A DNA stretch of 64,000 nt from Amycolatopsis alba DSM 44262 (GTDB taxonomy: Bacteria > Actinomycetota > Actinomycetes > Mycobacteriales > Pseudonocardiaceae), in assembly GCF_000384215.1 (NCBI RefSeq), contig NZ_KB913032.1:2993665-3057664 (forward strand), given 5' to 3'. The translations under genes and the position numbers were made by a program. The notes under the pieces are model-generated. The model searched no databases. It was not told the origin of the DNA and saw only the letters and a list, made by a program, of their open reading frames with translations. Positions 16,043 to 38,813 of this stretch are shown here, piece by piece; position 1 is the stretch's first letter, and every line of letters begins with the position of its first letter.

Positions 16043-19035
<2,993 letters not shown>

Positions 19036-19075
19036 ACGCGGATCCTGCCTGATCGCGCGGGCCGCGTCGACCTGG

Positions 19076-19930: not shown

Positions 19931-19936
19931 GTCAAC

Positions 19937-21712
19937 TCAGGCATCGCCGAGTTCGAGCCCCCACCCGGCTTCGTGCGGGATCCCGCCGCGGGCGGCGGCC
20001 TGTTCGGCCAGTCCCGCCACCCGGCCCACCGGAACCGGGATCGCGACGGGCACGGCCGTCTGGAGCGCCGTCGACGGCTGCCACCGGCACGACCAGGCAT
20101 CGGCCCGCGGCTTCTCGCAAACCGACTGCGGGTAGTACAGCTCGTCCGCCTTGAGGAAGGCGAACACCTGGTACCCGGCGGGTACGGTGCCGGCGACGGA
20201 TCTGGTGACCGGCGGCACCGCCACCACGAGCCCGGCGGGCGGCGACGGGACCGGCGGAGCGGCCGCCTGCGGAGCGGCCGGTGAACCGCCGACGAGGACG
20301 CCGAGCAGGAACACCGCCGTCAGCACCGCGATGGCGGCGACCGCGAGGATCAGGGGCAGGTGCCGGACTCGTTTCGCCCGCTGAGCCAGCCGCGAGGGGG
20401 TCTGGGCCCGGTTCGGGTCTTCGTTCACCCACCGGTCGAACACGGCACCGAGGGCGTCCATCGGGTTGCGTTTCTCCACGTCCCGCGCCAACAGCCGGGA
20501 GAACCGCCCCGACCGGCCCTGAGCGATGTACGCCTTCGCGTGTTTCAGCGCCACCGCGTCTTCGAGATCCGAAAAGGACTTCCCGTACATGATCTCGAGC
20601 AGCCGGGATTCGAGGTCCCGGACGAGGTCGTTTTCGACGAGCGCCGTCAGTGTGTCCACCGTGCGCACATCCAGTTCGTTCCGCACCTCCTGCCGGATGT
20701 GCTGCAGCTGGCACGGTGCGCTCAGCCGGTCCAGCTCGGCGCCGAATTCCGCGAGCGACCTGGCCCGCAGCAGCCCGGCGGTTTTTCCGGCCGAGGGTTC
20801 CTGGCGGCGGCGCGCGGGTTGAGCAGACGGCCGCGGCTCGGGACCTGTGCTTTCGATTCTCTTCCACGGCACCGGCTTGTCACTCTCCCGGACGGCCATC
20901 ACCTGTTCGGGTGGCGGCTGTGTCTTGATAAACCTGTCGAGGATCAGGCGCGCTTCGTCCGCGTATACCCCCTCGCCGTCGTCCCGCACCAGATCGACGA
21001 CGACCCGCTCGACGGTCCCGAGGCCCGAAGGCCGCTTGCTGAGGAAGACCAGATCGGGAAGGCCCACGACGCTCGTGTCGTGGCTGTGTTCGTAGGTCGA
21101 GAAGGAACCGAACGGCAGGATCCCGCGGCGGTCGAGACGCTGATCTTCCACGATGGCCCGCAAAGTGGCGATCATCATGAGCCGGAACTCGTCCGGGCAG
21201 CCGATGACGCTCAGCGGATCTCCGGGTTTCTCCAGGACACGCGCGAGCACGGTGACGAAGGCGTCCCACCATTCCTGCGCTTTGTCGCGGAGATAACCAC
21301 GATGGATCCCATAGGATTCCGCCTCGACGAGGAGGTGCGCGTGGCAGGACGCCGAAAGCTCGCCCCCGGACGAACGGTGTTTCCACGCGAAACCCAGCGC
21401 GACGGACGCGGTGAGCGCATCCGCGCTGCCGATCAGCGCCTGCGAATCGTTGCGGCCGCTGGAATGCCCGGCTCTCAGGCGATGCAGGAGAGCCGCCGTG
21501 CCGTCGTCGAACCGGAAATAGGACCAGGCCGTGTCCGGTACGTCGGCGGTGCCGATCGGGACGATGCGGACGTGGTCGATCAGCCGCGTCTCCCACATCC
21601 GCGCTTCGGCATCGGACGCGAACGAATTGTCGCGCATCCGCAACGCGTTCTTCTCCTGCGAGAAGCCGAAACCGGCTTGGTCGACCGAGAACTGGGACCG
21701 TGCGCTGGTCAT
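19937..21712 (-). CDS. Tail-anchored protein of the GTPase/tubulin operon (unknown)
   Basis: A 591-residue protein, the last gene of the eight-gene operon. The N-terminal 250 residues (FSVDQAGFGFSQEKNALRM, then IGSADALTASVALGFAWKH) form a domain I cannot assign. It is reminiscent of the N-terminal domains of proteins encoded beside P-loop GTPases in predicted conflict systems (GAP1-type). A helical middle (about residues 310-420) follows. One membrane helix lies at about 455-480 (LPLILAVAAIAVLTAVFLLG), and an approximately 100-residue Pro/Ala-rich C-terminal part would lie outside. The ATG overlaps the stop of the GTPase gene (ATGA), so the two are translationally coupled. No catalytic motif is evident. 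Confidence 0.75.
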   Translation of the reverse strand: MTSARSQFSVDQAGFGFSQEKNALRMRDNSFASDAEARMWETRLIDHVRIVPIGTADVPDTAWSYFRFDDGTAALLHRLRAGHSSGRNDSQALIGSADALTASVALGFAWKHRSSGGELSASCHAHLLVEAESYGIHRGYLRDKAQEWWDAFVTVLARVLEKPGDPLSVIGCPDEFRLMMIATLRAIVEDQRLDRRGILPFGSFSTYEHSHDTSVVGLPDLVFLSKRPSGLGTVERVVVDLVRDDGEGVYADEARLILDRFIKTQPPPEQVMAVRESDKPVPWKRIESTGPEPRPSAQPARRRQEPSAGKTAGLLRARSLAEFGAELDRLSAPCQLQHIRQEVRNELDVRTVDTLTALVENDLVRDLESRLLEIMYGKSFSDLEDAVALKHAKAYIAQGRSGRFSRLLARDVEKRNPMDALGAVFDRWVNEDPNRAQTPSRLAQRAKRVRHLPLILAVAAIAVLTAVFLLGVLVGGSPAAPQAAAPPVPSPPAGLVVAVPPVTRSVAGTVPAGYQVFAFLKADELYYPQSVCEKPRADAWSCRWQPSTALQTAVPVAIPVPVGRVAGLAEQAAARGGIPHEAGWGLELGDA

Positions 21713-22782
21713 GGCCGACCCACCATTTCCGCCTCCGAACCGGGAATGACCCCGGTCATCGCCAAGATCGAGATCAAGGGTTCGAGGACCCTGACCGGCC
21801 GGACGCCCCGAGGGAAGCGTCGTGTCAGGTCATCGCCGACGACGACGTCACCGCCACTCGCCGACACGAAATGCAGTGTGCTGCGCGCGAACGACTCGAA
21901 CGGCCGAAGCGACGCTCCGGCGCCGACGTGGTGCAGATACGCGTAGACGTCGCGGCTCTCGGCGCGGATCCTCTCCGCGTTCAGCACCTGCTCGTCTCCC
22001 CGCCGCAGCCATCGGTCGACGGGTGGCTGGTAACGCAGCCGGTCCGCTTTGGTCACCGCGATCGTCGCGGGCAGCGCACGGGCCCCTTCGATGCCCTGCA
22101 GCCGTTCGATGGCCAGGTCGAACGACTTGTTCTCGCTTTCCGCGACCTGGCGCTTGGTGTCCAGCGGGTCTTCGGACGCGTGCACGAAGATCACGGCGTC
22201 GGCCCCCACCAAGAACCGCGAAGCCCGGTTGCGGGCTTCGGGGCTTTCGAGGTCTTCGCCCGCCACGTCGAAGAAAGTCACCGGACGCTCTCCGCCCGGC
22301 CCCCGGAGCAGCAGGATGTCCGCCGCCTCGATGATGCCGGTATGCGTTCCCGGCAACGCCCCGCCACGTTCGAAGGGTTCGATGTAGGTCTCGCGGAAAT
22401 GGGCGTGCCTTCGGAAATCCAGCGCCGCGGCGGTGATCCGGTAGGGCCGCAGTCCGCCGGTGTAGGCCTGCCGGATCATCGCGGTGAGGAGATGCGTCTT
22501 ACCGGACGTCGGAGCCCCGATCAGGCCCACCACCAGCGGATCCGAATAGTCGGCGTAGGTGGCGGGCAGGTAGTGGGGAGTGGTGTCGCCGGAAGGATTC
22601 GGGCACGCGCGATAGCCCCGGCGGGTCAGGTCGGCCTGTTTGGCGGCGGGCAACGCCGAGATGTCGACCAGGTCGTAGCGGGCGTGTTCCGCGTCGTACA
22701 GGGAGACGACCGGCTCGTCCGGCCAGGCGAACTCGTCCGCGCAGATCGGGCACCGCACCGGCCGGGAATGTTGCTCTGTCAC
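21709..22782 (-). CDS. Zinc-finger P-loop GTPase
   Basis: A 357-residue protein. A short Cys motif (Cys11, Cys14, with Cys60 further on) suggests an N-terminal metal-binding finger. A GTPase domain follows: Walker A/G1 GAPTSGKT at residues 89-96, G3 DVAG at 172-175 and G4 TKAD at 244-247. This is a full set of guanine-nucleotide motifs. The domain resembles the GTPases described as double-GTPase type in predicted NTP-dependent conflict systems; that comparison is from memory. It overlaps by four bases with both its upstream neighbour (pseudokinase) and its downstream neighbour, indicating stoichiometric production. It is the only clearly soluble member of the operon besides the tubulin homologue. 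Confidence 0.82.
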   Translation of the reverse strand: MTEQHSRPVRCPICADEFAWPDEPVVSLYDAEHARYDLVDISALPAAKQADLTRRGYRACPNPSGDTTPHYLPATYADYSDPLVVGLIGAPTSGKTHLLTAMIRQAYTGGLRPYRITAAALDFRRHAHFRETYIEPFERGGALPGTHTGIIEAADILLLRGPGGERPVTFFDVAGEDLESPEARNRASRFLVGADAVIFVHASEDPLDTKRQVAESENKSFDLAIERLQGIEGARALPATIAVTKADRLRYQPPVDRWLRRGDEQVLNAERIRAESRDVYAYLHHVGAGASLRPFESFARSTLHFVSASGGDVVVGDDLTRRFPRGVRPVRVLEPLISILAMTGVIPGSEAEMVGRP

Positions 22783-23750
22783 AGAAGTACCACCAATCCG
22801 GTGATCACGCAGACGACGACGGCGAGAACGGCCAGCATCAGCAACGCGGACTTCGGCCGGGGAGCGGCCGAAATCGTCGAGGGTCTTCCGGGGGTCCTCC
22901 GGCGGTCCGCGCTGATCCGGTCGAAGAGCGACCGCCCCTCCCGCAAGGCGTCGTCAGGGTTCGTGACCGGCGGCGAAGACACGGGGGCGTGCAGCTTCTG
23001 CAGCAGATCCGCCGCGTGCGGACGGTGTTCGAGCGGGTTGTCGAAGACGTCGCCCAGCAACACGCGGAGCCGCTCCGGATCGCGGCTGCGGTCCTGGGGC
23101 GCGGCGGAGTAGAGCGCGCGGATCAGCCCGCCCGCGGCCCAGAGGTCGTCCCGGACGTCGGCGACGCCCTCGCCCGCGATCTGCTCCGGCGACCGGACCG
23201 GCGCCGTGCTCGCGTCCGCCCGCGGTTCCCCTGCCCGCTCGGCCGATTCGAAGTCGACGAGCTGCACCTGGCCTTCGGACCAGCGCACCGCGTCGAGGCT
23301 CACCGCGCCGTGCACGACCCCCGCCACCCCGGTGAGGTGCAGGGCACGGAGCACGCCGATCTGGAACTGACGGCGTTCGGCGTCGTCGAACCGCTTGACG
23401 GCGGCCGCCGCCGGGTCGCCGAGATAGGCGCGCAGGAGCACGAAGGGTTCGTCCGTGTCCATGTTGTAGGCGACCAGCCGCGCCAGTTCGGCCGGGTAAC
23501 GGTCGGCGAAGACCTGGGCGAGCCGGGTGCCGGCGCGTACTTCGTTGTCGAGCAACCGATAGAGCCGGGGATGACGGCCGCCGTCGCTCTTCGAGACGAA
23601 CTTCCGGACGTACAACTGTTCGTTCGCCTTCACGAGCTGCTGGCTCAGCACCGATCCCGGCGAGACGAAGTCACTGCCGTACGACAGGCGGATCTCCCGC
23701 AGCCGCCCGCTGACGTCACGGCAGCGGACCGTTTCCTCACTTCTGTCCAC
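22779..23750 (-). CDS. Tail-anchored protein pseudokinase
   Basis: A 323-residue protein with a protein-kinase-like fold and a C-terminal membrane helix (last about 22 residues). Kinase landmarks are present but altered. A Lys in YVRKF (residue 50) may be the ATP lysine and Glu70 the helix-C glutamate. The catalytic loop reads HGAVSLDAV (147-155), so the HRD aspartate and the loop asparagine are both alanine, and the DFG motif is DFE (166-168). It therefore very probably lacks phosphotransfer activity and acts as a scaffold or nucleotide sensor. The C-terminal tail before the membrane helix is basic. It directly abuts the upstream gene and overlaps the GTPase gene by four bases. Confidence 0.82.
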   Translation of the reverse strand: MDRSEETVRCRDVSGRLREIRLSYGSDFVSPGSVLSQQLVKANEQLYVRKFVSKSDGGRHPRLYRLLDNEVRAGTRLAQVFADRYPAELARLVAYNMDTDEPFVLLRAYLGDPAAAAVKRFDDAERRQFQIGVLRALHLTGVAGVVHGAVSLDAVRWSEGQVQLVDFESAERAGEPRADASTAPVRSPEQIAGEGVADVRDDLWAAGGLIRALYSAAPQDRSRDPERLRVLLGDVFDNPLEHRPHAADLLQKLHAPVSSPPVTNPDDALREGRSLFDRISADRRRTPGRPSTISAAPRPKSALLMLAVLAVVVCVITGLVVLL

Positions 23751-25928
23751 TCAGGACACCCCTCCCCATGACTTCCGGACGGACTCGGGCCGCAGCGGTG
23801 ACAGGCGGAGCGCGCCCACCACCTCGCCGCTTTCGCTCCAGGTGATCCGGGGATCCGCGGTCACCGGACGGGCGGTCCCCTGTTCCGCGAGCACCCGGCG
23901 CACTTGAGCCGGCGCGAAGCGGATCAGTTCCGGCTCGTTCACCGTGCGGAGGAACCGGAGCTGGGAGCTGCGGCACAACTGCGTCAGGTCCGCGTCCGCC
24001 GCCATCCGCAGCACCGCCGGGGAATCCGCCGATTCCGCCCAGACCCGTGCGGTGAGCGCGTCCCGCGCGCGACGGTCACGGCCGAACTCCGGCGGAGCGA
24101 GCAGACCGCGGCGCCGGACATGCGTGTCGTAGCGGTGCAGCAGCCGGTCGAACCCTTTCGACAGCACCCCCGGAGTGACGTCACGCCCGCTTTCCGTGGC
24201 GGGCCAAACCGGTTCCAGGGCGGCCATGACCAGGTCGGCGACGTCGCCACGGACGACGTCGTACACCTCGGGCGGCACCGAATGCCGCGGTTCGCGGCCG
24301 GGACCGTCCGACGGCCCGGAGAAGAGCAGCTCACCGGACCGTTCCAGTTCCCTGCCGATCTCTTCGAGGCTCGAAGCCACCTCCGTCGCGGCCACGGCGA
24401 TCGCGGCGTGCCGTCGCATCGGCACCCATTCCCGGCCGACGGCGTTCTCGGCCAGCCCGGTCAGCCGCGCGATCGTCTCCAGCAGGACCGCCGAATCCAC
24501 CGCCGCCTGCCAGCGTCGTACCGCCGACCGCCAGCCGAAGACGACCACGCACGCGCTGATGGCGACGACGGCGACGCTCAGCGACTGCGCGGCCAAAGGG
24601 GAGATGAGCGAGGAAAGGAGAACGGTTTCCGGCGAGAACCGGGTGAACACGCCTGCCACGGCCGCGATCGCGTAAGCCAGCAATGCAGGTGGGAGCGTCG
24701 CGTCGAATCCTCGCTCGCCCTCGGGGGTGGGACTGCGGCTCAGCAGCAGCCAGCCCGCCCCGAACCAGGCGGCGGCCAGCAGGCCGCCCGCCACCCAGCC
24801 GCCGAGGCCGGGACCGAGCAGCACGGTCAGGGCGAAACAGCTGAAGAAGATCCAGGGAATCGCCGCCAAGGACAACGGCCACCGGCTGAACCGCGGCATG
24901 ACCAGTACCGGCGCTGGATGTTCGCGGATCTTCTGCAAGGTCGCCGCGCAACCCTGCGGTGCCGCCGACGCGGCGGCCATCCGCAGCTCCCTCGCCAGCC
25001 CCGGAAGCGAAACCCCGGCTTCGACACGCCGGTCGACGTGGTCCCGCAAGTCCGTCACGAGTTGCCGCCGGTCCACCTCGACCGGCGCGGGGACGCCCAG
25101 ATCGAGGACATCGTCGAGCAACGGATACCCGCTCTCGAGATGGCCGTCGACGCGATCGAGTACCTCGACGAGGAACAGGCGGTGGTTCTCGGCCGCCTCG
25201 CTCGCCCACGCGAAGTGCTCGCCCAGCCGGGCCGTCGGGCGACGGCTCCCGAAGACCGCCTGTGCCGTGCCCAGCTGAGCGACCAGCGAGCCGGTCAGGC
25301 GTACTCGCCGGGCGGCTTCGGCCCCCGCGGCGCGGACCGGATCGGCCAGCTCGGCCCGGTCCGGCGGGCGCTCGCCGCCGATGCTCCGGAGGTCCTTCAG
25401 CCCGGCGGGCGACACCGCCGCCTCGCCGGAACCCAGCCGTCGCACCACGGCGTCGCGGGCTTCCGCGAGCTCCTGCGCGTCGGGCCCCACCGGGACCACC
25501 CGGACCCCTGGGCTGGTCGCGGGGCCGGTCCGCTCGGCGGCGGCGAGCACCTGGTCGAAGACCTCGGGGACACACAGGGCGGCGATCAGGCTGTCGAGCG
25601 AATCCGTCCCGGTGGCCGGTCGCGGTGCCTTGCTGCCGGGCGCCCACTCGACACCACGGGTGTCCCCGGCCCAGAGGATCGCGGCGTACGTCAGCGCCGC
25701 CGGGATCTCGAGGACGGCGCCGTCGTGCGGCCCCTCGGCGTTCACGCTCTCGCCGACGGCCACGCAGACGACCCCGGTCACCATTTCCTCACCGGTGAGG
25801 GCCAGATAGCTTTCCGCGTGCTCGACGAGCGAGTCCGCGTCGTCGAGCACCACGACCCGCCCCGAGGGTTCGGGTGGGCAGCCGCCCGTGCGCAGGTCGA
25901 CCAAGGCCACTTCCGTCGTGTTCACCAC
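23751..25928 (-). CDS. Multi-pass membrane protein of the tubulin operon
   Basis: A 725-residue protein of unknown family. The N-terminal 330 residues are hydrophilic: an alpha/beta part with VVLDDADSLVEHAESYLALT, then a helical part. Four or so membrane helices occupy about residues 345-475 in two pairs (WPLSLAAIPWIFFSCFALTV, then a second, then LLAYAIAAVAGVF and a long hydrophobic stretch before VVVFGWRSAVRRW). The C-terminal 250 residues are hydrophilic again, ending with a Leu/Arg-rich globular segment. No Walker or catalytic motif was recognised. It lies seven bases after the tubulin-like gene and abuts the pseudokinase gene, so it probably provides the membrane platform of the complex. 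Confidence 0.75.
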   Translation of the reverse strand: MVNTTEVALVDLRTGGCPPEPSGRVVVLDDADSLVEHAESYLALTGEEMVTGVVCVAVGESVNAEGPHDGAVLEIPAALTYAAILWAGDTRGVEWAPGSKAPRPATGTDSLDSLIAALCVPEVFDQVLAAAERTGPATSPGVRVVPVGPDAQELAEARDAVVRRLGSGEAAVSPAGLKDLRSIGGERPPDRAELADPVRAAGAEAARRVRLTGSLVAQLGTAQAVFGSRRPTARLGEHFAWASEAAENHRLFLVEVLDRVDGHLESGYPLLDDVLDLGVPAPVEVDRRQLVTDLRDHVDRRVEAGVSLPGLARELRMAAASAAPQGCAATLQKIREHPAPVLVMPRFSRWPLSLAAIPWIFFSCFALTVLLGPGLGGWVAGGLLAAAWFGAGWLLLSRSPTPEGERGFDATLPPALLAYAIAAVAGVFTRFSPETVLLSSLISPLAAQSLSVAVVAISACVVVFGWRSAVRRWQAAVDSAVLLETIARLTGLAENAVGREWVPMRRHAAIAVAATEVASSLEEIGRELERSGELLFSGPSDGPGREPRHSVPPEVYDVVRGDVADLVMAALEPVWPATESGRDVTPGVLSKGFDRLLHRYDTHVRRRGLLAPPEFGRDRRARDALTARVWAESADSPAVLRMAADADLTQLCRSSQLRFLRTVNEPELIRFAPAQVRRVLAEQGTARPVTADPRITWSESGEVVGALRLSPLRPESVRKSWGGVS

Positions 25929-25935
25929 CGGCCCC

Positions 25936-28900
25936 TCATTCCCCGAGTCCGGTGGTGATCTCGACCTGCTCGCGCAGATCCACCAGGTTCTTCGTCGTCG
26001 CCCCGACCCGCAGTCCCAAGGCGTCGGGCAGGGAACGGGTCCAGAACCGCTGGACGACGGCCAATTGCGGATCGCGCTGGAGCACCCGGTTCTGCTCCGC
26101 CTGCTTGACCTTCAGCGATTCGGACTCGGCGAGGTCCACCAGGGTGGTGAACTCCGCCGCCGGTGGCATCGGCGCCCGGCCCGCGTCGTCGGGGACGGAG
26201 GACATCAGGCGGGCGGCCAGGCTCCGGCGGGTCGGGTTGTCGTCGGCCAGGATCCAGTTCTCGTACGCCTGCAGGACACTGGCCCACGACGAAAGCGCGC
26301 CCAAGGCGCTCAGTTCCAGCTTCATGGCCACGGACTCCCGGCTGCCCAGCTCGACCGTGATGGACGTCGGGCTGGCGGGATCACCGGCCACGACGACCTT
26401 CCCGTTCCAGGCCGCGCACAACAGGCGGTGCAGCACATGGGCGCGGTCGTGCTCGCCGATCAGCAGGTAACCCTGGTCCTGGCTCAGGCGGCGACGCCAC
26501 GGAAGGGTGTCCTGCGGATGCGGCCGGTGCTGGGCCTCCGCCCACAATTTGACGACACGGCGCAGCTCGGGAACCTCCGTGACCCCCATGGAGCTGCGGT
26601 TCAGCACGACGATGATGGCGTCCGCCTGGACGGCCCGGAACTCGGGTTCGCCGATCATGTCGGCCGGCAGCGACACCTCCCGGCCCAGGAACCGCTCGAT
26701 GTCGTCGTTCTCCTGCGCCGCGGGATAGGTGAACAGCGCCTTGAGCGGGGCGTTCCCGTCCGGGGCGAAGCCACCCGGCACCAGTTCGGCCAGCTTCTGC
26801 CGGAACCGGTCGAGGTCGGCCTCGGTGAGGCTGTCGTCCCGCCGTCGCACGGCGTTGGCGAGCAGATCCTCCATCCGCGGTACGAGGGCGGGGCGGGTCC
26901 GGTCCGACGGCCTCAGCTGTTCGGAAACCACTTCCTTGATCCGCTGCCGGACGTGCGCGACAGCGCCTTCGGGGTCCTGACGGCCCTGGGCGTAGGCCGC
27001 GGCCCAGCCGTCCTGGCCGAGCATGAGGTTCAGCAGGTCACCCTCGTGCGCGTTCGGGCCGAGATGCTCGCCGTACTCCTCCTTGAGCCGGTCGAGCACG
27101 GACTGGTAGAAGCCCTCCAGACCGTGGTCCTCGGGCGGCAGGAGATACGCGACGCCGACCCTGGGCTTGTAGAGGTCCTTGGACCGCTGGTCGAACGAGC
27201 GCGGCTCGCTGCGCGCGTACGTCACGAATCTCTCGTGGACGGCGTCGAACTCCTCGACGAACGCCTGCCACGGCCGGGTCCACATGCGACGGCTGTCGTT
27301 CCACGCCGCGTTCCAGATCCGCCGCGTCTGCCACGAGTACCACAGGTCCTGCTGCCGGATGACGGCCTGCACCGGTTCGTCGGCGATCCGCAGCCGCTGG
27401 GTCAGCTTCCGCGGCAGGTTCTGCGGCAGGGGCGGAGCGGCGGCGTTGAGCCCTGGTGGCGCCGGGGGCGGTGAGCACCAGTTCTCCAGCAGGAAACGGA
27501 ATCCGCTGCGGTCGAGCGGGTCGGTCAGGTCGCGGTGGCCGAACACGGTCCGCCGGAGCCGGAACAGGTCCATCTCGCGCAACAGGACCTCGACGGCCTT
27601 GGCTGGCATGAAGTTCTGGGCCACCGTCGCGACCGGACCGGCGAGCGTGTCCGGGCCACGCTCGATGTTGCCGCTCATCGCGTTCGCGCGTTCGGTCAGC
27701 GCGGCCAGCACCGGCCCGTAACCCACCGGGCTGCCCTGCGGCGGGATGCGCGCCGGGCCGGCGTCGAGGATCCGGTCGAGCCCCGAGGCCGTGACGAACC
27801 GGCGGATGTGGGTCCGGTTCGACTCGGCGGCACCGGGCGGGACCAGCAGTTCGTTGACCGCGTTCGCCAGCAGGTGCGCGCTGACGGCTTCGGTGAGTTC
27901 CAGCAGCGGAGTGGTGAGCGCGGCGACGGCGCTGGTCGTCACGCCGCGCCTGCCGACCCCGGTCTCCGCGGTGGCGTGGCGGTCCACCTTGCTGTTGATG
28001 AACCCGTCGGCGAAGCTCTGGTACGGCCGGTTGGCGCCCTCGTCCTCACCGGCCTGATCCGTCGGGCCCGCCCCGATCAGGGACGTCATCAGCGAGACCA
28101 TCGACCGGTTGAGGTCGTCGCGGCGGACCCCGCCGACCGGGCGGCCGAAGAGGAACGCGGTCTGGATCGTGTTCGGCAGCAGCTGGACCTGTTCCAGCCG
28201 CGGGTACCGGACGGAGACGGCCCCGTGTGTCCCGTGCGCGTCCAGTTCGTCGGGCGATCCCTGCGCGTTCTGGTCGTCGATCAGCCGGAACAGGTCCACC
28301 AGCGCGGATCCGGCGTTCAGATCGGCCGGGCGGCCACCGCCCTGTCCGTCGTCGAACGCCGACGGCATGAGGACGAGCGGGTAGATCTCGGCCTGCTTTC
28401 CCCCGCGCTGCATCAGATCGCCGATCAGATGGAGGTAGTCGTAGTAGATCCCGCTGCCGGTACCGCCTGCGACCGAGAACACGACGAACACGGTGACGGT
28501 GTCCACCCGCTGCGTGCGCTTGCCGCTCACGACGAACAGCTCCCCGGCCGATTCGTTGATGTCGGCCAGCGCCTGCTTGATGCCGAGCAGGGCGGTGTCC
28601 GGGTTGCGGCGGATCGTCTCGAACAGCACCCCGCGGCCGACCGCGGGCAGCTGACCGGCGCCGCGGACCAGCGGGCCGATCCGCGGGTCGCTTTCCTTGG
28701 CTGGCAACCAGCCGATGGTCTCCTCGTCCGTGTTGATCCGCAGGCTCTGCGCCACGTCGGCGGAGTTCCCGAGGCGCGGCGGCACGAGGTCGGTGATGAG
28801 GTGCATGGTCTTCTGCGCGGCGGCGTCGTGCTCACGGCCCGGCACGACCTCCCGGCGCACCCGCTGCAGTTCGTTGGTGCTCAGGTCGGCGTAAACGAAC

Positions 28901-29067
28901 TGGAGGCACGAGGGCAGCTGGTACGGCAGGGCGTTCGGGAGGTCGGCGAGCAGTCGTGTGCCGTCCGGACCGCACAGTTCCTCGCGCAATCTCTTCTCGA
29001 GCTCCGCGCCGACCTTGCAGCCGGTCCCGCCGAGCCCGACGAACATCATGGGCTGGTAGATCTTCAT
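25936..29067 (-). CDS. Tubulin/FtsZ-like GTPase (Tubulin_2-type)
   Basis: A 1043-residue protein with an N-terminal tubulin-superfamily GTPase domain. The first nucleotide-binding loop is VGLGGTGCKVG at residues 10-20, and the tubulin signature loop is AGGTGSG at about residues 200-206, in a FSVAGGTGSGIYYDYLHL context. This is the arrangement of the large bacterial tubulin-like family (Pfam Tubulin_2). The C-terminal 600 residues are largely helical with no recognised domain. ATG 29067 places the GTP-binding strand at the N-terminus as expected; the frame is open for another 330 bases without similarity. It is expected to bind GTP and perhaps polymerise; membrane proteins encoded on both sides suggest recruitment to the membrane. 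Confidence 0.85.
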   Translation of the reverse strand: MKIYQPMMFVGLGGTGCKVGAELEKRLREELCGPDGTRLLADLPNALPYQLPSCLQFVYADLSTNELQRVRREVVPGREHDAAAQKTMHLITDLVPPRLGNSADVAQSLRINTDEETIGWLPAKESDPRIGPLVRGAGQLPAVGRGVLFETIRRNPDTALLGIKQALADINESAGELFVVSGKRTQRVDTVTVFVVFSVAGGTGSGIYYDYLHLIGDLMQRGGKQAEIYPLVLMPSAFDDGQGGGRPADLNAGSALVDLFRLIDDQNAQGSPDELDAHGTHGAVSVRYPRLEQVQLLPNTIQTAFLFGRPVGGVRRDDLNRSMVSLMTSLIGAGPTDQAGEDEGANRPYQSFADGFINSKVDRHATAETGVGRRGVTTSAVAALTTPLLELTEAVSAHLLANAVNELLVPPGAAESNRTHIRRFVTASGLDRILDAGPARIPPQGSPVGYGPVLAALTERANAMSGNIERGPDTLAGPVATVAQNFMPAKAVEVLLREMDLFRLRRTVFGHRDLTDPLDRSGFRFLLENWCSPPPAPPGLNAAAPPLPQNLPRKLTQRLRIADEPVQAVIRQQDLWYSWQTRRIWNAAWNDSRRMWTRPWQAFVEEFDAVHERFVTYARSEPRSFDQRSKDLYKPRVGVAYLLPPEDHGLEGFYQSVLDRLKEEYGEHLGPNAHEGDLLNLMLGQDGWAAAYAQGRQDPEGAVAHVRQRIKEVVSEQLRPSDRTRPALVPRMEDLLANAVRRRDDSLTEADLDRFRQKLAELVPGGFAPDGNAPLKALFTYPAAQENDDIERFLGREVSLPADMIGEPEFRAVQADAIIVVLNRSSMGVTEVPELRRVVKLWAEAQHRPHPQDTLPWRRRLSQDQGYLLIGEHDRAHVLHRLLCAAWNGKVVVAGDPASPTSITVELGSRESVAMKLELSALGALSSWASVLQAYENWILADDNPTRRSLAARLMSSVPDDAGRAPMPPAAEFTTLVDLAESESLKVKQAEQNRVLQRDPQLAVVQRFWTRSLPDALGLRVGATTKNLVDLREQVEITTGLGE

Positions 29068-29119
29068 CGCGTGTTCCCCTGTCCAACGGGCCGGCATGAC
29101 CGGCGAAGGTCGGTTCTGT

Positions 29120-30169
29120 TCATGGATTCGCCTCCGGCGGTTTTCCCTCGTCGCGGACGCGCCGCAACAGCTGGTCGACCTTGGCCAGGGCGTCCACCGC
29201 GGCCATGAGGTCTTCGTAGAGGCCGGGATCGCTGCCGTTCGCGCGGTCCGACGTCGCCGCGAACGCCCGCATCCCCAATGCCCTGTGCAGTTCGAGCCCT
29301 TTGTCGCCGAGCGACGTGGTGTAGCCCTTGAGCGTTCGCATCGCGATGGCGAGTTCTCCCGCCCATTGCGCGGCAGCGCGGTGCTTCGACGATTCACGCA
29401 TCAGATACGCGGCCAAGGCGGCCAGCGGGATCGTCGCGGACAGCCGGAGGAGTTCGGTGCCCACCGTGAAGTCGATGCTGAGGAAGTTGAGCACGATGAA
29501 GCCCGCGGCGACGGTGGTCAGGAGCGCGACGACGGCCGCACGCAGCCGATCCGCGATCCTCGCTTCCTTTTCTGCGTGCTCGAGGTAGTACTGCCCCACG
29601 CCCTTGGCACCGGCGACTCCGGCCGCGTCCTCCGCGGCGGCCTGGGCCTGGCGCGCGCCGTCCAGCGTCCGCTCGGTCTGGTCCAAGAGCCATCTCGCCC
29701 GGAGCTGCCGCCGGATCTCGGCCACGGCTTCCGTCGCCGCCGCGCGCTTCGCCGGCTTCTCGTCCTCTCCGACGACCGGGTCGTCCAGCACCGCGGCGAA
29801 ATGGTCCACAGTGGACTCCGCCCGCTCGCGCAGGTTCCTCGCGTGCTCGTCCAGCTGGGCCACCAGGACGCTTTCCCGCTCCGTCCCCGCTTTTCCGACC
29901 GCCAGCAGGCAGCTTCGGAAGTCCTCGAACGACCGTCGCATCGCCGTGATCGAGTCCACGAAGGCCTGGCTCGACCGGACCCGCTCCTCGATCACCTCGC
30001 CGACGTCGTCCTTCAGCACGTAGCCGACCACGAATTCGGCGATCAGCCGGGCGTCCTCGATCGCCAGCTGCACGGTCTTGTCCGCGGGCCGGTCCCACTC
30101 CGTGTTCACCGAACCGTGGAGTCGCTCGACCTCGGCTCTCAGCTCACGGAACGCGTGTTCGGGCGTCAT
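29120..30169 (-). CDS. Membrane protein of the tubulin operon (unknown)
   Basis: A 349-residue protein. Residues 1-205 are strongly helical and charged, likely coiled coil (FRELRAEVERLHGSVN at the start). Two membrane helices follow at about residues 210-265 (VVALLTTVAAGFIVLNFLS and LLRLSATIPLAALAAYLM), then a helical C-terminal part of about 80 residues. It does not match a family I can name. It overlaps the DUF4407 stop by four bases and precedes the tubulin-like gene by about 50 bp. A copy of the GTCCACAGTGGAC palindrome lies inside it (29804-29816). Confidence 0.75.
   Translation of the reverse strand: MTPEHAFRELRAEVERLHGSVNTEWDRPADKTVQLAIEDARLIAEFVVGYVLKDDVGEVIEERVRSSQAFVDSITAMRRSFEDFRSCLLAVGKAGTERESVLVAQLDEHARNLRERAESTVDHFAAVLDDPVVGEDEKPAKRAAATEAVAEIRRQLRARWLLDQTERTLDGARQAQAAAEDAAGVAGAKGVGQYYLEHAEKEARIADRLRAAVVALLTTVAAGFIVLNFLSIDFTVGTELLRLSATIPLAALAAYLMRESSKHRAAAQWAGELAIAMRTLKGYTTSLGDKGLELHRALGMRAFAATSDRANGSDPGLYEDLMAAVDALAKVDQLLRRVRDEGKPPEANP
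29804..29816. repeat. GTCCACWGTGGAC palindrome, copy 2
   Basis: GTCCACAGTGGAC, inside the membrane-protein gene upstream of the tubulin homologue. Confidence 0.8.
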
Positions 30170-31194
30170 CGCGCCTCACCGTCCGGTTCGGCCGAGGAAC
30201 CGTTGCGGCCCTTGACGTACCGGTGCCAGGGAATGCCCGTCTCGCCGTCCGGTTTCCGGACGCCCAGCTTCCACGGCTCGTCGCGCCGACGGCCGAGGCG
30301 TACGAGGAACGCCAGCAGAAGCCAATCGACGACGAAGAAACTGAAGAAGGCGCCGAGATAGATCACCAGGAACGAAGTCCCGCGTTCCCGCAGGAACGAG
30401 TCCAACGTCGCGCTGGTGGGCTGTTCGTTTCGCGGCGCCGCCGCGGCCAGCGTCCGGTCGATCACGAGAAGCCGTACTCCGGCGGCGTCCTGAGCGGAAC
30501 GCAGCCGCCCAGCCTCCCCGGTCAGCTCGGTCTTCCTGGCCTCCAGCTGGATCGAAACACCGTCGAAGTCCCTCCTCACGGCGTCCCGGTACTCGACTTT
30601 CATGTAGTAGGCGAGACCACGGCCCCGCACCCCGGTTCCGCAAGTGCCGTCGAGTTCGCAAAGCACCTGCTGTTCGGCACGCCGGAGTTCGTCCGAAGTC
30701 TCCGTCACCTGTCGCGTGAGCCGCACGGCCTCGGCGTCCGCCTCGGGGTTCGGGGGCTTCTGTTCGAGAAGGGCTTTCAGCTCCGCACGCTCTTCCCGCA
30801 ACTCGGGTCCGGTGACCGCCGCGGCCTCGGCGGGCGTCCAGGTTCCGCCCGCGATGAACCAGAGCGTCGACGCGGTCGCGACGACGAGACCTTCGATCAG
30901 TGAGAGCGCCATCCGCCTGCCGGGGAGCCGTCTCCTGGCCGGGTCCCCGGACGCGGCGATGGCCCACGAGTTGAGGGCGCTCTTGCCCACCATCCAGCCG
31001 ACCAGGAGAGGCAGGCTCAGGAAGGACGGCAGCCGGAAGCCGTAGAAGACCGTCACCGACGCGGCGGCCGACACGACCAAGGCGAGCACGGATCCGGACG
31101 CGGTCAACCAGAACGGGCACGCTTCGCGGTCATTACGCACCTTTCCCGTGGTGTTCGCCCGGCTCGTGGTGAAGGCGTCCCGCAGACTTGCCAT
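30166..31194 (-). CDS. DUF4407-like membrane protein
   Basis: A 342-residue protein with the layout of DUF4407. Two membrane helices lie near the N-terminus (about residues 28-48 and 53-75, with TASGSVLALVVSAAASVTVF), and a third at about 95-117 (ALSLIEGLVVATASTLWFIA). A coiled-coil region follows (about 130-240, GPELREERAELKALLEQK at its start). A last membrane helix lies at about 273-297 (FLVIYLGAFFSFFVVDWLLL), with a short basic cytoplasmic tail. The coiled coil would be extracytoplasmic if the topology is even-numbered. The ATG is 12 bases after the vWA gene and the stop overlaps the next start. Confidence 0.75.
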   Translation of the reverse strand: MASLRDAFTTSRANTTGKVRNDREACPFWLTASGSVLALVVSAAASVTVFYGFRLPSFLSLPLLVGWMVGKSALNSWAIAASGDPARRRLPGRRMALSLIEGLVVATASTLWFIAGGTWTPAEAAAVTGPELREERAELKALLEQKPPNPEADAEAVRLTRQVTETSDELRRAEQQVLCELDGTCGTGVRGRGLAYYMKVEYRDAVRRDFDGVSIQLEARKTELTGEAGRLRSAQDAAGVRLLVIDRTLAAAAPRNEQPTSATLDSFLRERGTSFLVIYLGAFFSFFVVDWLLLAFLVRLGRRRDEPWKLGVRKPDGETGIPWHRYVKGRNGSSAEPDGEAR

Positions 31195-31206
31195 TGCTTC
31201 GCGCTC

Positions 31207-33582
31207 CTAGTCGGTCGCGAACGGGTTGCCGGGATCCCGGTACGAGCCGCCCGGAGGCTCGTCGGAGAACGGATCCCCGGCGGAGAAGGGATCTTCACGG
31301 CCGGAGCCACCCGCCGCGGACGGAACGGACGTGGGGACACCCGGCGACGGCCGGTCACCGAACGGGTCGGCGTAGGCGCCGTCGTCCCCGCTCGCCGGAC
31401 GCTCCCCGGCGAAGGGGCTGAAACCGCCGCCCACGGGGGAATTTCCCGCCATCCCCGTCATCCGCTGGTCCACCAGCACGAGCGCGTGCCGGTCACCGAG
31501 TTCGTGCCGGTCGCCGGGAGCCAGCGCGACCGGTTCCCCCAGCGGCGGCGTCAACCGGAACTCCGGACCGGCCCGCCGGACGCGGTAGACCTCGGCGTCA
31601 CCCGGACCGGCCGGTTGCAGCCGTCGCCCCGTGAACTCCTGGTACACCACGAAACCGAACTCCGGCACGTCGCCGTCCGGCGGTTCCAGCGCCGAGATCT
31701 CCTCGTCCCCCTTCAGCAACCGCACCTGCAGGCCGCTGACGTGCGCGGCCGAACGCCGGGCACGGAACTTGCCGAAGCCGAAGAGCAGCAGGCCCACCGC
31801 CGCGATCCCGAGCACGACCCACAGCCAGAAGAACTTCTCGAGAACGCCGGGCTCCGGCTCGACCTCGATCGCGAACAGCCGCTCGGCGACGGGCGCCCCG
31901 CCGGTCAGCACCCGCAGGGTCGCGCCGTTCGGCCCCTCCGGCGTGTCCGGACCGAACCGCAAGGTGAACGGGACCGTCGTGACCCCGACCGGCGCAACCG
32001 ACGAACCGGGCTCCACGCTGATGGAGGCGCCCTCGGTCGGCGACGCGACCTCCAGTCGCATGGGCACGGGGGCGGCGGAATTGTTGGTCATCGAGACCGT
32101 GCCGGTGATCGACCCGCCGGGAGTCACGGTGGCGGTGTTGGAGTCGAACAGGATCTGCGCCCGCACCGGGGCGGCGCCGTTCTGGACACTCGTGGCGAGG
32201 ACACGGGTGTCACCGCCGATGCCCACCCCGGTCACCGTGCCGGTGAAGGTCAGCGCGCCCGTGGCGTCGGCGGGCACACCGAACTGGCCGCCGAAGGTTC
32301 CGTCCCGGTCCGGATCGGACAGCGTGAGCTCGCCGAGCGGCGCGCCGGAAGCACCGGTCACCACCGTTTTGAAGGTGAGCCCCTGCACCGTGGCGGGGTC
32401 GGTGACCGCGCGATTCCTGGCCCACACCTGCATGCTGACGTTCACCGGCTGACCGGCGGCGGGCTGCGGCGGATCGACCGTGAGATAGGCCTTGACCACC
32501 GCCTGGTACGCCACCGTCGCGGCCACTTCCTGGGCGGGCACGTCGGCGGAGGAAAGCCGGACCGTCCACCGGCCTGGCTCGGGATCCGTGATGCGCAGCG
32601 CCTCGGTTTCGGTGTTCTGCCCGGCGAATTCGAAGTGGGAACCACCCGCCGCGGGCGCCGGCGTGGTCTTGCCCGGCGGCAGGTATTCCACCTGCACCCG
32701 CGGGTCGCGTTTGTAGACCAGAATCGACGCGTCGCTCGCCACGCCGGGGATTTCGACGTTCAGTTCGACGGACCCGCCCTTCGGCACATTCCCGGTGTCG
32801 AGGGGCCCGTATTTCACGCAGCTCGCCGAGCTGAACGCCTCTTGGACCGCGGCCCTCAGTTCGACCGAACTGGGGGTCACCTGTTCGTGGGGATCCGCGA
32901 CACTCGGCGTGCAGCTTTTTCCCTTGGCGAAGCCCTTCAACGCCGCGCTGTCGACCTTGCCGAATCCCAGCGGCCACACCTGCGCGCCGGCGCGATCGAG
33001 TTCTTCCAGAGTCTCCTGGGCTTTCGCCGCTGCAGCACCGTTCCGCCGCGCCGGGGTATCCCCCCAAGCCGGACTGTCAGAAACGTCGAGCTTGCCGTCG
33101 GTCAGCAAAAAGACGAGTTTCTTCTCCGTTTTCTCCATCCCCACGAAGCCAAGGGCCTGCTGCAACGCCGCGGCGTGGTCGGTGCCATCGCCTTCACCTG
33201 GCGCCCGGCGATGGAGCCCGCCGATGCAGCCCGCGAGCGAATCACGTTGCTGCGCGGTGTCGAGTGTCGTGGGTGGACAGGCCACCCGCACGGCGCTCTG
33301 ACCAGGCCCATTCGAACTCCCGAAACCGACAACCGAAATGATCGAACCCGGCGCGAGCGCGCTGTACACAATCGTGCGAGCCGCTTCTTTTTCCCGCGCC
33401 ACATCGGCTTCAGCAAGGCTCCCGGACTCGTCGACGAGCACCACCACCTTGAGCGCGGGCAGCGCCGAATTCCGCTCCTGACCGGCCGCATTTCCGGGCG
33501 CCGAGAGACATGACAACGGCAAGAACACAGCCACGGCCAGAAGACACACCCATCGGCGCAATCCGGCTCCCCGCTCCCGCAT
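31207..33582 (-). CDS. Secreted/TM von Willebrand factor A protein, first gene of the operon
   Basis: A 791-residue protein. A signal peptide is at about residues 1-33 (basic start, core WVCLLAVAVFLPLSCLS). An extracytoplasmic vWA domain follows, with a full MIDAS: DESGS at 51-55, DGTDH further on and the LLTDGKLDVSD aspartate. Next come several Ig/CARDB-like beta domains rich in Thr, Val and Pro, then one membrane helix at about 580-603 (WLWVVLGIAAVGLLLFG) and a cytoplasmic tail of about 190 residues that is Gly/Pro/Asp-rich at the end. It could bind a divalent-metal-dependent ligand outside and signal inwards to the GTPases. ATG 33582 was chosen over an upstream in-frame start because it begins the signal peptide. 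Confidence 0.85.
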   Translation of the reverse strand: MRERGAGLRRWVCLLAVAVFLPLSCLSAPGNAAGQERNSALPALKVVVLVDESGSLAEADVAREKEAARTIVYSALAPGSIISVVGFGSSNGPGQSAVRVACPPTTLDTAQQRDSLAGCIGGLHRRAPGEGDGTDHAAALQQALGFVGMEKTEKKLVFLLTDGKLDVSDSPAWGDTPARRNGAAAAKAQETLEELDRAGAQVWPLGFGKVDSAALKGFAKGKSCTPSVADPHEQVTPSSVELRAAVQEAFSSASCVKYGPLDTGNVPKGGSVELNVEIPGVASDASILVYKRDPRVQVEYLPPGKTTPAPAAGGSHFEFAGQNTETEALRITDPEPGRWTVRLSSADVPAQEVAATVAYQAVVKAYLTVDPPQPAAGQPVNVSMQVWARNRAVTDPATVQGLTFKTVVTGASGAPLGELTLSDPDRDGTFGGQFGVPADATGALTFTGTVTGVGIGGDTRVLATSVQNGAAPVRAQILFDSNTATVTPGGSITGTVSMTNNSAAPVPMRLEVASPTEGASISVEPGSSVAPVGVTTVPFTLRFGPDTPEGPNGATLRVLTGGAPVAERLFAIEVEPEPGVLEKFFWLWVVLGIAAVGLLLFGFGKFRARRSAAHVSGLQVRLLKGDEEISALEPPDGDVPEFGFVVYQEFTGRRLQPAGPGDAEVYRVRRAGPEFRLTPPLGEPVALAPGDRHELGDRHALVLVDQRMTGMAGNSPVGGGFSPFAGERPASGDDGAYADPFGDRPSPGVPTSVPSAAGGSGREDPFSAGDPFSDEPPGGSYRDPGNPFATD

Positions 33583-34131
33583 ATCCCACTCCGATTCACA
33601 CATCCGTGCCACGGTCAACCCCTGAGCAGTGCTGAAGTCGCTCGTCTGCCGGAGCCTGTTACGCCAAATGGTCACGGTCGCGTCTCACTGAGACGGCAAC
33701 ACCGATGACCGCACGGAAATCGTCGAATGTTTGTCAGATAACGGAAAATAGAACGCGAGGACGGCGCGGAGGTCGCGAATGTCGGACGGCGACGTGTCCA
33801 CACCGGAGGGTTTAGTCCATTATGGACGGACAGCTGTCGACTTCGGACGAGTGGACCGGAGATCAAAAGCGGGATTTTCGACAAACATCGAGAAATATCG
33901 AATTGCGACAATCCACGCAGGCCGAACATCCCCATCGCCTGGTCAGGCCAGGTGCTCGCCACCACTCCCTGCCAACGCCACCCGCGTCGTCAGGACATGG
34001 CCGGAGTCCACATCGAGCTTTCGGTAACGTCGATCAAGGGCGCAGCGTCAGCCCGCAGGTGCTCATGGTTCGAGGCATCGCTGCCAGCAACAAGGCCTTG
34101 AATGTGGCGCAGCCCGCCACGGGGTCAGGAT
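33583..34131. other. 550-bp spacer upstream of the vWA-tubulin operon
   Basis: No credible gene. This must contain the operon promoter, and it is more AT-rich than its surroundings. A variant palindrome GTCCATTATGGAC lies at 33815-33827, and CCTGG/CCAGG arms at about 33939-33953. Short frames here lack ribosome-binding sites and GC-codon bias. I cannot point to a convincing -35/-10 pair. Confidence 0.4.
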
Positions 34132-34491
34132 CTAAGCGTCCTGTTCGATACGTTCGAAAATATCGATGTCGGTGGCCTTCTGCCACTCGGGCAGAGTGTC
34201 CCAGTCCGCGACGTAGGACGGTTTCGGGTCAGGGAAGTGTTTGAAGATCTGACCGATCCAGCACAGCGCGACGAAGCGGCCCTTCTGTTCCAGGGTGAGC
34301 TTGGCGGCGGCTCCGTTCGTGGCAGTGAGGAACGACAACACTTGGTCATAAACGGCCGTGGCAGCGTCGCGTTCCCAGTCCGGTGTCTCGTCCCAGGGCG
34401 TGATGTAGCCGGGTTTCGGTTCACCGGGGTAGTGCTTGATGACTCCGGCGATCCATGCTTCGCGGAACACGCGGCCACGGTCGTTGAGCAT
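34132..34491 (-). CDS. Small protein with two tandem repeats
   Basis: A 119-residue soluble protein made of two copies of one module of about 45 residues. Copy 1 has VIKHYPGEPKPGYITPWDET; copy 2 has IFKHFPDPKPSYVADWDTLP. Each ends in an acidic helix (AVYDQV and DIFERI). The shared pattern is Trp-Ile-X3-(I/V)-(F/I)-K-H-(Y/F)-P, then P-K-P-X-Y, then W-D-X3-(P)-(D/E)-W. ATG 34491 is preferred because GGAGGAA lies eight bases upstream; an in-frame GTG at 34506 overlaps the stop of the HTH gene. The tight coupling implies joint function with the regulator. I do not recognise the family. Confidence 0.7.
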   Translation of the reverse strand: MLNDRGRVFREAWIAGVIKHYPGEPKPGYITPWDETPDWERDAATAVYDQVLSFLTATNGAAAKLTLEQKGRFVALCWIGQIFKHFPDPKPSYVADWDTLPEWQKATDIDIFERIEQDA

Positions 34492-34505
34492 GCTGTCTTC
34501 CTCCA

Positions 34506-35780
34506 CTATGCGGTGTGGCCACTGGCGAGCTCGGTGATCTCGGCGTCGAGTCGCTGGATGTTCTTGTCGGCGAGCAGGGGTGCCAGGTGTGGCTGGAGGC
34601 CTCGTAGTTTGCGAGCGACCACACCGGACCTGGTCTGGCGAGCGGTGGCCAGGACTGCCTCGGCGTAGTTGATGACCTGGTCGGGATCGGCGCGGTGAAC
34701 GCCGATCATGGCCAGGTCGGTCAGGACACCGGCTTTCCGTCGGGTGGTGAGCGCGCTGTTCAGAGCTTCAGCGAGGGCCGCTTCGGCCTGATCGAGGCGG
34801 CCGAGAGTGACAAAGCAGGTGCCGCGTTCTTCGGCCAAACGGGAGCCGTCGAAGCGGAGCCAGCCGCCGTTGTGCACTTGCCCCTCCAGATGCCGGACTT
34901 CTGCCGCGGTGTCGAGTGCGCGTTGACAGCCGTCGAGGTCGCCGAGGCCCGCGAAGGCTTCCGCTCGAACGGCAGCTACCCAGTACCGGGTCGACAGGTC
35001 GGCGTCACCACGGGATGCCAGATTGGCGGCCAGGTCGAGCAAGGGAATGGCGTGAGTGAACTTGCGTTCATAGACGGCGATGAAGGCGTGCCGAGTCAAG
35101 GCACAGGCCCACAGGTCCGGCGCTCCGGCTTCCTTGCCTGCGGCTGCGGCCAGGGTGTAGCAATGAGCCGCGTCGGTGTAGCGGTCGCCGTCGAAGTAGA
35201 TCTCGCCTGCCAGCTGGAACAGATCGGCAGCCAGTCGGCAGAGCCGCTGCCGGATCGCCGGTGTCTGCGACTGGCGCAGTGCCTCGGTGAGCACATCGAG
35301 CTGGGTTCGCACGAGCGGCAGCAAATGGCTCTTGCTCGACGCCATCCCGTAGACCCGCCACAGATGACCGGCAAACACGGCTAATTCGTCCGCCCCAGCA
35401 GCATCGACGGCACCACCACTTGCCGCCGCAGCGGCCCTGTCGGCATCCCCGAGCGCTAGCAGTGCCCCTGTCACGCTGAACAAGCGCAGCAGGTCGCGAC
35501 GATTCATGTCGTCGGCCTCCGCAAGATCGAGTGGCGTCACGGCAACGGTCGCCGGGCATCGCGCCGGAGCCGGTGCCCTCTCCAGCAACCTACCTAGTTC
35601 TTGCAGCGTGACGCCGAGCGCCTTCGCGATCCGGGTCCTGCGGAACGGCTGCGGGGTCACCTCGCCCCGTTCCCAGCGACCCACGGTGGAGAACTCGACA
35701 TTCAGCTCCGCCGCGAAGGTTTCTTGTGTGTAGCCCATCGCCTCCCGCCGCGCAGCGAAAGCGCCTCGCCGGTCACCCAT
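34506..35780 (-). CDS. Helix-turn-helix (XRE) regulator with TPR-like domain
   Basis: A 424-residue regulator. An N-terminal XRE-type HTH lies at about residues 5-60 (GYTQETFAAELNVEFSTVGR, then WERGEVTPQPFRR), followed by a linker with an odd twin-arginine-like stretch NRRDLLRLFSVTGALLALG at about 95-113, then a helical repeat domain of about 300 residues. This architecture is widespread in actinobacteria, where such proteins regulate neighbouring natural-product or unknown loci. It is divergent from the putative RiPP operon 290 bp away and is therefore its likely regulator. ATG 35780 begins the HTH domain; an in-frame upstream start would add 21 residues. Confidence 0.82.
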   Translation of the reverse strand: MGDRRGAFAARREAMGYTQETFAAELNVEFSTVGRWERGEVTPQPFRRTRIAKALGVTLQELGRLLERAPAPARCPATVAVTPLDLAEADDMNRRDLLRLFSVTGALLALGDADRAAAAASGGAVDAAGADELAVFAGHLWRVYGMASSKSHLLPLVRTQLDVLTEALRQSQTPAIRQRLCRLAADLFQLAGEIYFDGDRYTDAAHCYTLAAAAGKEAGAPDLWACALTRHAFIAVYERKFTHAIPLLDLAANLASRGDADLSTRYWVAAVRAEAFAGLGDLDGCQRALDTAAEVRHLEGQVHNGGWLRFDGSRLAEERGTCFVTLGRLDQAEAALAEALNSALTTRRKAGVLTDLAMIGVHRADPDQVINYAEAVLATARQTRSGVVARKLRGLQPHLAPLLADKNIQRLDAEITELASGHTA

Positions 35781-35877
35781 GAACACCACCCGCCCCGTTT
35801 GGTCACCGGTCACGATAACCAGCAATTGGCCAAGGCCGATCACCTCTCAGCGAGCTGCACCCGTTCGGACTACCACC

Positions 35878-35893
35878 TATAAATGAGGCATTT
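35878..35893. promoter_or_regulatory. Possible operator/promoter between HTH gene and peptide operon
   Basis: AAATG-AGG-CATTT (35881-35893) is a perfect 5+5 palindrome in an unusually AT-rich spot of the divergent spacer. On the minus strand it includes TTTATAG, a possible -10 for the HTH gene. Proposed as a regulator site from position only. Confidence 0.3.
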
Positions 35894-36068
35894 ACGCAGG
35901 TCAGAGGCAACGATGCCGAATTGGCGCCTGGTCGCCGCCAAGTTAGTGCTCTGGCTTCCACGAGGCGGCGAAACGTTGACTGGACTCGTAACAGCCCGAG
36001 CACTCGCCCAGACGTCGGAATGCCGTCGCGGGCGCCATGTGCAAGCGAACTGACGAGGAGAAGTCGAT

Positions 36069-36194: not shown

Positions 36195-36269
36195 CCGGTA
36201 GCCACACCCATCGCGGCTCGGGCAATGTGCAGTGCCCGAGCCGCACCGCGGAAAGGGACCTGATCCATC

Positions 36270-38632: not shown

Positions 38633-38697
38633 GGCAACCAGCAACAATCGAAGACGGAAACACCAGGTAGATGGACTTTTCGACAGGAAGTGAAGGG

Positions 38698-38770: not shown

Positions 38771-38813
38771 CTGCCCAGGACACCCCAGGCAAGCCCAGTA
38801 TATCGGCGTCCCC

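Follow-up and report, generated by a model that had tools for sequence, protein, structure and literature searches.

Operons that bring together a vWA protein, an FtsZ-like 1 (FtsZl1) protein, a kinase and a GTPase were described in 2010 by Makarova and Koonin, who proposed that they serve membrane remodelling and vesicle biogenesis (PMC2875224). In 2020, Kaur et al. described the DO-GTPase/GAP1/tubulin systems and predicted for them a role in biological conflicts (PMC7159879); besides these two predictions, the literature searched, with a limited collection and set of terms, yielded a phylogeny paper of 2023 and a mutant study in Synechocystis, but no experiments on DO-GTPase/tubulin systems. 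Here we analyse a 64,000-nucleotide stretch of Amycolatopsis alba DSM 44262 (NCBI RefSeq assembly GCF_000384215.1, contig NZ_KB913032.1, positions 2,993,665 to 3,057,664; hereafter the window), whose source genome is a single contig of 9.8 Mb. From position 33582 down to 19937, eight open frames, here named A to H, follow one another on the minus strand. Six of them form a sharply bounded, widely shared cassette that has moved among filamentous bacteria of the soil, with Streptomyces among its hosts; as judged from its genes, it is a diverged form of a machine predicted to serve membrane remodelling or defence in bacteria.

The order and common strand of the eight genes agree with an original prediction made from the sequence of the window alone. 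Gaps of 12, 52 and 7 bp separate A from B, C from D and D from E, respectively, E and F are adjacent, and the pairs B-C, F-G and G-H overlap by 4 bp each, so that the genes look like one operon. By a hydropathy scan, D and G lack membrane segments and the other six proteins (A, B, C, E, F and H) have them, in line with the six of eight that had been anticipated. Pfam gives no family at a meaningful E-value for E, F or H.

Iterated profile searches covered 104 loci in all, made up of the window itself, 23 from a genome survey and 80 around relatives of the tubulin-like protein D. The latter set consists of the best 80 of 145 relatives and leans to close kin; four of its members (L029, L030, L039 and L040) duplicate loci among the other 23. 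At E < 1e-5, D was found in the most loci (103), followed by A (94), E (87), F (80), G (79) and H (78), whereas B and C were found in only 10 and 11, with the duplicates from two genomes included. In the 80-locus set, 65 loci reach 3 kb or more ahead of the tubulin gene and 7 kb or more beyond it, and 64 of these keep the order A-D-E-F-G-H on a single strand; in the single exception, L057 from Actinoplanes, H was not detected. By these sequence comparisons the recurring unit is A, D, E, F, G and H, six genes and not eight: the expectation that all eight would recur was upheld for these six and failed for B and C, and homologues scattered independently of one another, which would have spoken against a unit, were not what we found. 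Pairwise correlations between the tree distances of the six proteins range from 0.89 to 0.97 (73 loci, uncorrected for shared ancestry), and comparative genomics demonstrates their co-inheritance. At the distant Tubulin_2 loci L011 to L023 the profiles match A and/or D alone, with E in addition at L017, which lies at a contig end; these loci represent other FtsZl1 operon types or are too short to tell. A second F-like (kinase-family) match lies downstream of the cassette at L031:21977-22438.

B and/or C occur in 7 of the 80 loci, C being present without B in L037, and two of the seven come from the same genomes as the Amycolatopsis loci L027 and L028. Once duplicates are removed, the nine rows with B or C (one from Nocardia, the rest from Pseudonocardiaceae) all fall inside a fully supported 11-row clade of the tubulin tree, indicating that B and C were inserted between A and D within this clade; L033 and L036, within the same clade, have neither. 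The Pfam DUF4407 match of B scores 27.1 bits against a cut-off of 31.3. The locus L037 (1-20063, Pseudonocardia lacus) carries an expanded version with two vWA genes, two GTPases and three H-like regions, together with an opposite-strand C gene upstream and a frame in which an H-like part precedes a GTPase; the two GTPases, one of them sharing a frame with an H-like part, echo the double-GTPase name.

The last gene, H, ties the operon to the systems of 2020, because its product proves to be a relative of GAP1. It had been put forward as a tail-anchored protein, of which the membrane part stands and the tail anchor, in the strict sense, does not: the transmembrane (TM) segment at residues 454-472 is followed by about 119 more residues, and the relationship to GAP1 had been overlooked. 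When a profile of H from 78 loci was compared by hhalign with a profile of 25 GAP1 proteins found with PF20013 (L110 and L131, being sub-threshold or partial, were left out), the two aligned over 218-220 columns covering the N2 and M parts, with a probability of 94.4-94.6, an E-value of 6.4e-8 and a score of 72-73. Scores in the controls reached at most 18.4 for the GAP1 profile against the seven other families, 25.4 for H against the same seven and 13.6 for 30 column-shuffled GAP1 profiles. H also lies directly downstream of the GTPase gene G, the position stated for GAP1 (PMC7159879). Profile comparison thereby demonstrates that H is a divergent GAP1 with N2 and M regions.

Across 25 genomes that carry Tubulin_2, Pfam detected GAP1-N2 in 3, and in two of these it lies at a great distance from the tubulin. 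In genome G441, from the host's order, a stretch of about 13 kb (L146) brings together a GAP1-N2/GAP1-M gene recognised by Pfam with DO-GTPase2-like and Tubulin_2 genes, in the order tubulin, 976-aa protein, called plus-strand frame, GAP1-N2/GAP1-M gene and GTPase. The models of A, E, F and H found no match there at E <= 1, and the GTPase of L146 scores 23.9 bits against DO-GTPase2, as weak as G. The host genome itself has a second GAP1-type locus about 2.4 Mb away (L109, G000:C1:589851-590252), with a GAP1-N2 protein at a Pfam E-value of 4.6e-37.

The best Pfam family for G, DO-GTPase2, is reached with 24.8 bits against a cut-off of 27. The motifs GAPTSGKTH, FFDVAGED and AVTKAD correspond to Walker A, Walker B and TxKD, and a zinc-ribbon-like cysteine motif, Walker A, DxxGE and K-x-D are kept across the family (79 rows, 25 commonest forms each), confirming the zinc-finger GTPase first proposed. 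F matches the PADLOC kinase model PD-T4-6 (1.4e-6), and its hydrophobic segment at residues 303-321 of 323 forms a tail anchor. Among 17 aligned rows, an intact HRD motif is seen in L054 alone and a D-x-G motif in L076 alone, and no row combines the two, so that the call of a tail-anchored dead kinase, degenerate in every one of the 17, holds up on motif evidence; in the wider 80-row set the 25 commonest forms were inspected. F and G are encoded in a single frame at 33 of the 73 loci with the complete six-gene set, and at 34 of the 69 loci of the 80-locus set with both genes, duplicates included. On a quick tubulin tree the fusion changes state three times.

The large protein D had been taken for a member of the tubulin superfamily, and profile and structure model agree on this. 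Tubulin_2 is matched at E-values of 7.3e-53 to 9e-53 (Pfam), and the predicted GTP-binding G-G-T-G loops are conserved across rows. The structure model matches CetZ, FtsZ and tubulin, and since the match runs past residue 800 it extends beyond the GTPase lobe; modelling thus demonstrates a predicted tubulin fold with both lobes of the tubulin core, and a long helical insertion probably lies within the second. The acids of the T7 loop serve interface GTP hydrolysis in the tubulin/FtsZ fold. In the putative T7 loop of D, located by sequence pattern alone, the first acid position is S or T in 89 of the 89 rows listed; at the second position, 42 of these rows keep D or E and 47 have some other residue. 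E is predicted to have about four TM segments, an N-terminal alpha/beta part and a helical stalk, and its predicted structure yielded no known fold. In the longest frame of A, a vWA domain at about residues 77-254 is followed by a long ectodomain without an assigned family, a TM segment and a cytoplasmic tail; this open frame extends to 33675, giving 822 aa with hydrophobic segments at 39-57 and 615-633. The metal ion-dependent adhesion site (MIDAS) is indeed intact, D-x-S-x-S being present in 86 of the 87 rows with letters there (7 of 94 rows are gapped).

Within the host genus, Tubulin_2 was detected in 9 of the 80 genomes, and in a sample of the phylum in 17 of 396, where the whole cassette was found in the window and G185 alone among the loci fetched. 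In the genus of G185, which is Streptomyces by the tree, 43 of 295 genomes have Tubulin_2, in any operon type. A tree of D, built on 87 of the 103 rows after removal of four duplicates, of L012 and L016 and of sequences no longer than 800 aa, places Amycolatopsis in three separate positions and Rhodococcus rhodnii beside Kibdelosporangium aridum. The AHSA1-like gene flanking the cassette was matched in 73 of the 80 genomes, in 21 at >=87% identity, and the flanking PhoD copy at >=82% identity in 18, two of them in pieces. In 14 relatives, close copies of both are found on a single contig, no more than about 100 kb apart, and the ten in which the distance is at most about 21 kb were compared with the window by blastn. 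In all ten, homology breaks off at 19935-19940 and picks up again at 38692-38697, where a tRNA-Thr gene kept by all ten ends. Their AHSA1-tRNA-Thr-PhoD intervals (L136-L145) hold other inserts of 1.7 to 18.2 kb, with 75 called frames and a single 185 bp match to the window, shared between the L144 island and the asparagine-synthase-like region of the window. End repeats were not found, and integrase families had no match in the eight cassette proteins or the three other island proteins scanned. Taken together, the locus is most likely an accessory island that was moved horizontally.

Candidate defence proteins among the matches listed for these hotspot inserts are PDC-M41B, PDC-M30B, QatA/PifA-type, GajB-like and PDC-S20. 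The inserts mix defence-like with metabolic genes, so the neighbourhood hints at defence, nothing more. Further defence candidates in the AHSA1-tRNA-Thr-PhoD interval are of the MADS, Gabija and KAP types. Two of the ten relatives (G006 and G015) have another cassette type elsewhere in the genome, and two loci closely related to the cassette, L028/L029 and L030, lie near a tRNA-Ala and a tRNA-Lys; insertion beside tRNA genes may have happened repeatedly in this clade.

Composition, order, co-inheritance, F-G fusion, GAP1 homology, tubulin fold and island have all been established on sequences or models, and we regard this anatomy as solid; the function is predicted, with moderate confidence. 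The reading that we favour, and to which we give about half of our belief, is a mobile six-gene machine (A, D, E, F, G and H, with B and C optional) in which a membrane GTP switch would act on a tubulin-like polymer, probably in conflict or defence. The vWA ectodomain of A would sense a ligand or an envelope disturbance in a divalent-metal-dependent manner and signal through its TM segment to the cytoplasmic face, where F, as scaffold or allosteric regulator, the GTPase G and its GAP1-like partner H would form a membrane-anchored GTP switch; pseudokinase F, often fused to G, is the likely control point. The switch would decide whether D assembles into a tubulin-like polymer, with E holding D at the membrane, and the polymer might deform or seal the membrane or block an invader, most likely in an anti-phage or inter-bacterial conflict. 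In one clade, B and C would give the machine a broader output at the membrane. A bolder version, in which the vWA receptor frees a pseudokinase-GTPase-GAP1 lock and a tubulin relative with an eroded hydrolysis loop assembles in a single, essentially irreversible step on the membrane against phages or rivals, as a one-shot switch perhaps comparable in logic to an inflammasome, strikes us as rather improbable.

Several observations weigh against the favoured reading. The GAP1-N2 part alone aligns less well with H (probability 67, E 5e-5, 101 columns), and the Pfam GAP1-N2 model, at E <= 10, finds nothing at the cassette locus while matching elsewhere in the genome; it likewise gave no match in the four relatives scanned. 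Shared phylogeny inflates the mirror-tree correlations of the cassette proteins, and the hotspot inserts also include metabolic genes (families listed: 25/29 and 25/60). No PADLOC system was matched as a whole by any of the eight proteins, a phage collection gave no match (tblastn), and the sole match in a plasmid collection (PLSDB NZ_LT559118.1, Nonomuraea, 11.85 Mb) is chromosome-sized; the tubulin encoded there is 41.5% identical to D. Finally, a Synechocystis Tubulin_2 mutant has a motility and photosynthesis phenotype, though from a different operon (PMC9880817).

The last point belongs to a possible, though clearly less favoured, explanation, namely that the cassette is an envelope or membrane-remodelling machine for the host's own use (vesicles, hyphal envelope, secretion) with no role in conflict. 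The membrane segments in six of the eight proteins and the proposal of 2010 (PMC2875224) agree with it, as do the impaired phototaxis of the sll0445 mutant and the putative interactions of the sll0445 protein with pilus and photosystem proteins (PMC9880817); however, the patchy presence (9/80 and 43/295), horizontal acquisition and island location fit an accessory better than a housekeeping role, and H connects the cassette to the GAP1/DO-GTPase systems. We judge it distinctly unlikely that the cassette is a surface signalling or adhesion relay, in which the vWA receptor controls the GTPase towards an unrelated output and D is a monomeric GTP sensor and not a polymer. Such a sensor would suit the S or T at the first T7 acid position in all rows listed and the non-acid second position in 47 of 89, and in 2010 an FtsZl1 that forms no filaments was left open as 'less likely' (PMC2875224), whereas the D model matches polymerising relatives past residue 800 and the cassette has no evident output gene besides its membrane proteins. 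Chance adjacency of independent genes, to which we give practically no weight, is refuted by the order counts (64/65), with two of the genes in one frame at 33 of 73 loci.

Table 1. Features of the cassette and of the island that carries it (window positions).
Feature	Position	Strand	Basis
A, secreted/TM vWA protein	31207..33582	-	Pfam VWA_2 2.7e-8; hydropathy; MIDAS motif
B, DUF4407-like membrane protein	30166..31194	-	DUF4407 3.2e-6, below cut-off
C, helical protein, membrane segment(s)	29120..30169	-	hydropathy; alignment
D, Tubulin_2 (FtsZ-like 1), 1043 aa	25936..29067	-	Pfam Tubulin_2; predicted structure
E, membrane protein, about four TM	23751..25928	-	hydropathy; predicted structure
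F, tail-anchored pseudokinase	22779..23750	-	PADLOC kinase model; motifs; hydropathy
G, zinc-ribbon DO-GTPase-like TRAFAC GTPase	21709..22782	-	DO-GTPase2 2e-5, below cut-off; motifs
H, divergent GAP1 (N2 + M regions) + TM	19937..21712	-	hhalign; controls; hydropathy
Accessory island, AHSA1-like gene to 3' end of tRNA-Thr	19936..38696	.	blastn, 10 relatives
tRNA-Thr(TGT), island edge	38695..38771	-	ARAGORN

A possible regulator pair, formed by a 445-aa helix-turn-helix protein and a 124-aa frame without a family (34132-35843), lies immediately upstream of the operon and is read in the same direction. The island also contains an asparagine-synthase-like gene (515 aa, Asn_synthase 5.3e-19) with an overlapping 395-aa frame (36270-38632). 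On the other side, a minus-strand DUF3800 frame (18265-19101; 3.3e-6) lies between an 828-aa terpene synthase and the AHSA1-like gene and slightly overlaps both.

Among described systems, sll0445-0447 of Synechocystis likewise joins a Tubulin_2 protein to cytoskeleton- or division-like partner genes, but there the partners are FtsA-domain and DivIC-domain proteins and the phenotype is in phototaxis (PMC9880817). The third GAP1-N2 theme of Kaur et al. shares with the cassette kinase-family and vWA proteins beside a DO-GTPase; its kinase is active, whereas F is degenerate, a tubulin is present here, and its PP2C has no Pfam match among A to H (PMC7159879). The word 'pseudokinase' is absent from the main text of that paper, where the one passage on an 'inactive kinase' concerns effectors of another system class (PMC7159879).

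The FtsZl1/Tubulin_2 operons have in common with the cassette a Tubulin_2 protein of about 1050 aa that has a long helical part, a vWA protein with an intact MIDAS and a signal or TM segment, membrane proteins without assigned function, a divergent P-loop GTPase that carries a cysteine-rich region in fusion and a kinase-family protein (PMC2875224). The predicted fold of D reaches the second tubulin lobe, a part that the authors could not align in 2010 (PMC2875224). The cassette differs in its kinase, which is degenerate in 17 of 17 rows and partly fused to the GTPase (in FtsZl1 operons the kinase gene is frequent, not universal), in its last gene, a GAP1 relative, and in the B/C add-on of the window operon (PMC2875224). 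OmpA had no Pfam match at E <= 1 among the eight proteins; an OmpA-family protein occurs in several FtsZl1 genomes and is not required there (PMC2875224).

With the GAP1-N2 tubulin theme the locus shares a DO-GTPase2-like GTPase with a zinc ribbon and a Glu after DxxG, a downstream GAP1 relative, one tubulin with a helical domain and a membrane vWA protein (PMC7159879). It departs from that theme in having pseudokinase F and protein E, in H, which stays below Pfam GAP1-N2 detection and aligns with the N and M parts, and in the FNIII/HRDC protein, which was not detected (PMC7159879): no fn3 family matched A to H at E <= 1 in Pfam, FNIII repeats being said by Kaur et al. to evolve rapidly (PMC7159879). 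We did not file the locus as a strict member of the theme because the Pfam GAP1-N2 test fails and FNIII was not detected; on sequence grounds it is a diverged relative of it (PMC7159879). The suspected link to predicted membrane-remodelling and conflict systems has thus been found in the literature (PMC2875224, PMC7159879), and the supposed undescribed variant stands as a variant, its kind having itself been predicted in 2010 and 2020 (PMC2875224, PMC7159879). Through H, a GAP1 relative missed by the standard Pfam model, these two predictions are joined, and the cassette allows both to be tested, that of membrane remodelling for Tubulin_2 and that of conflict for DO-GTPase/GAP1/tubulin sets.

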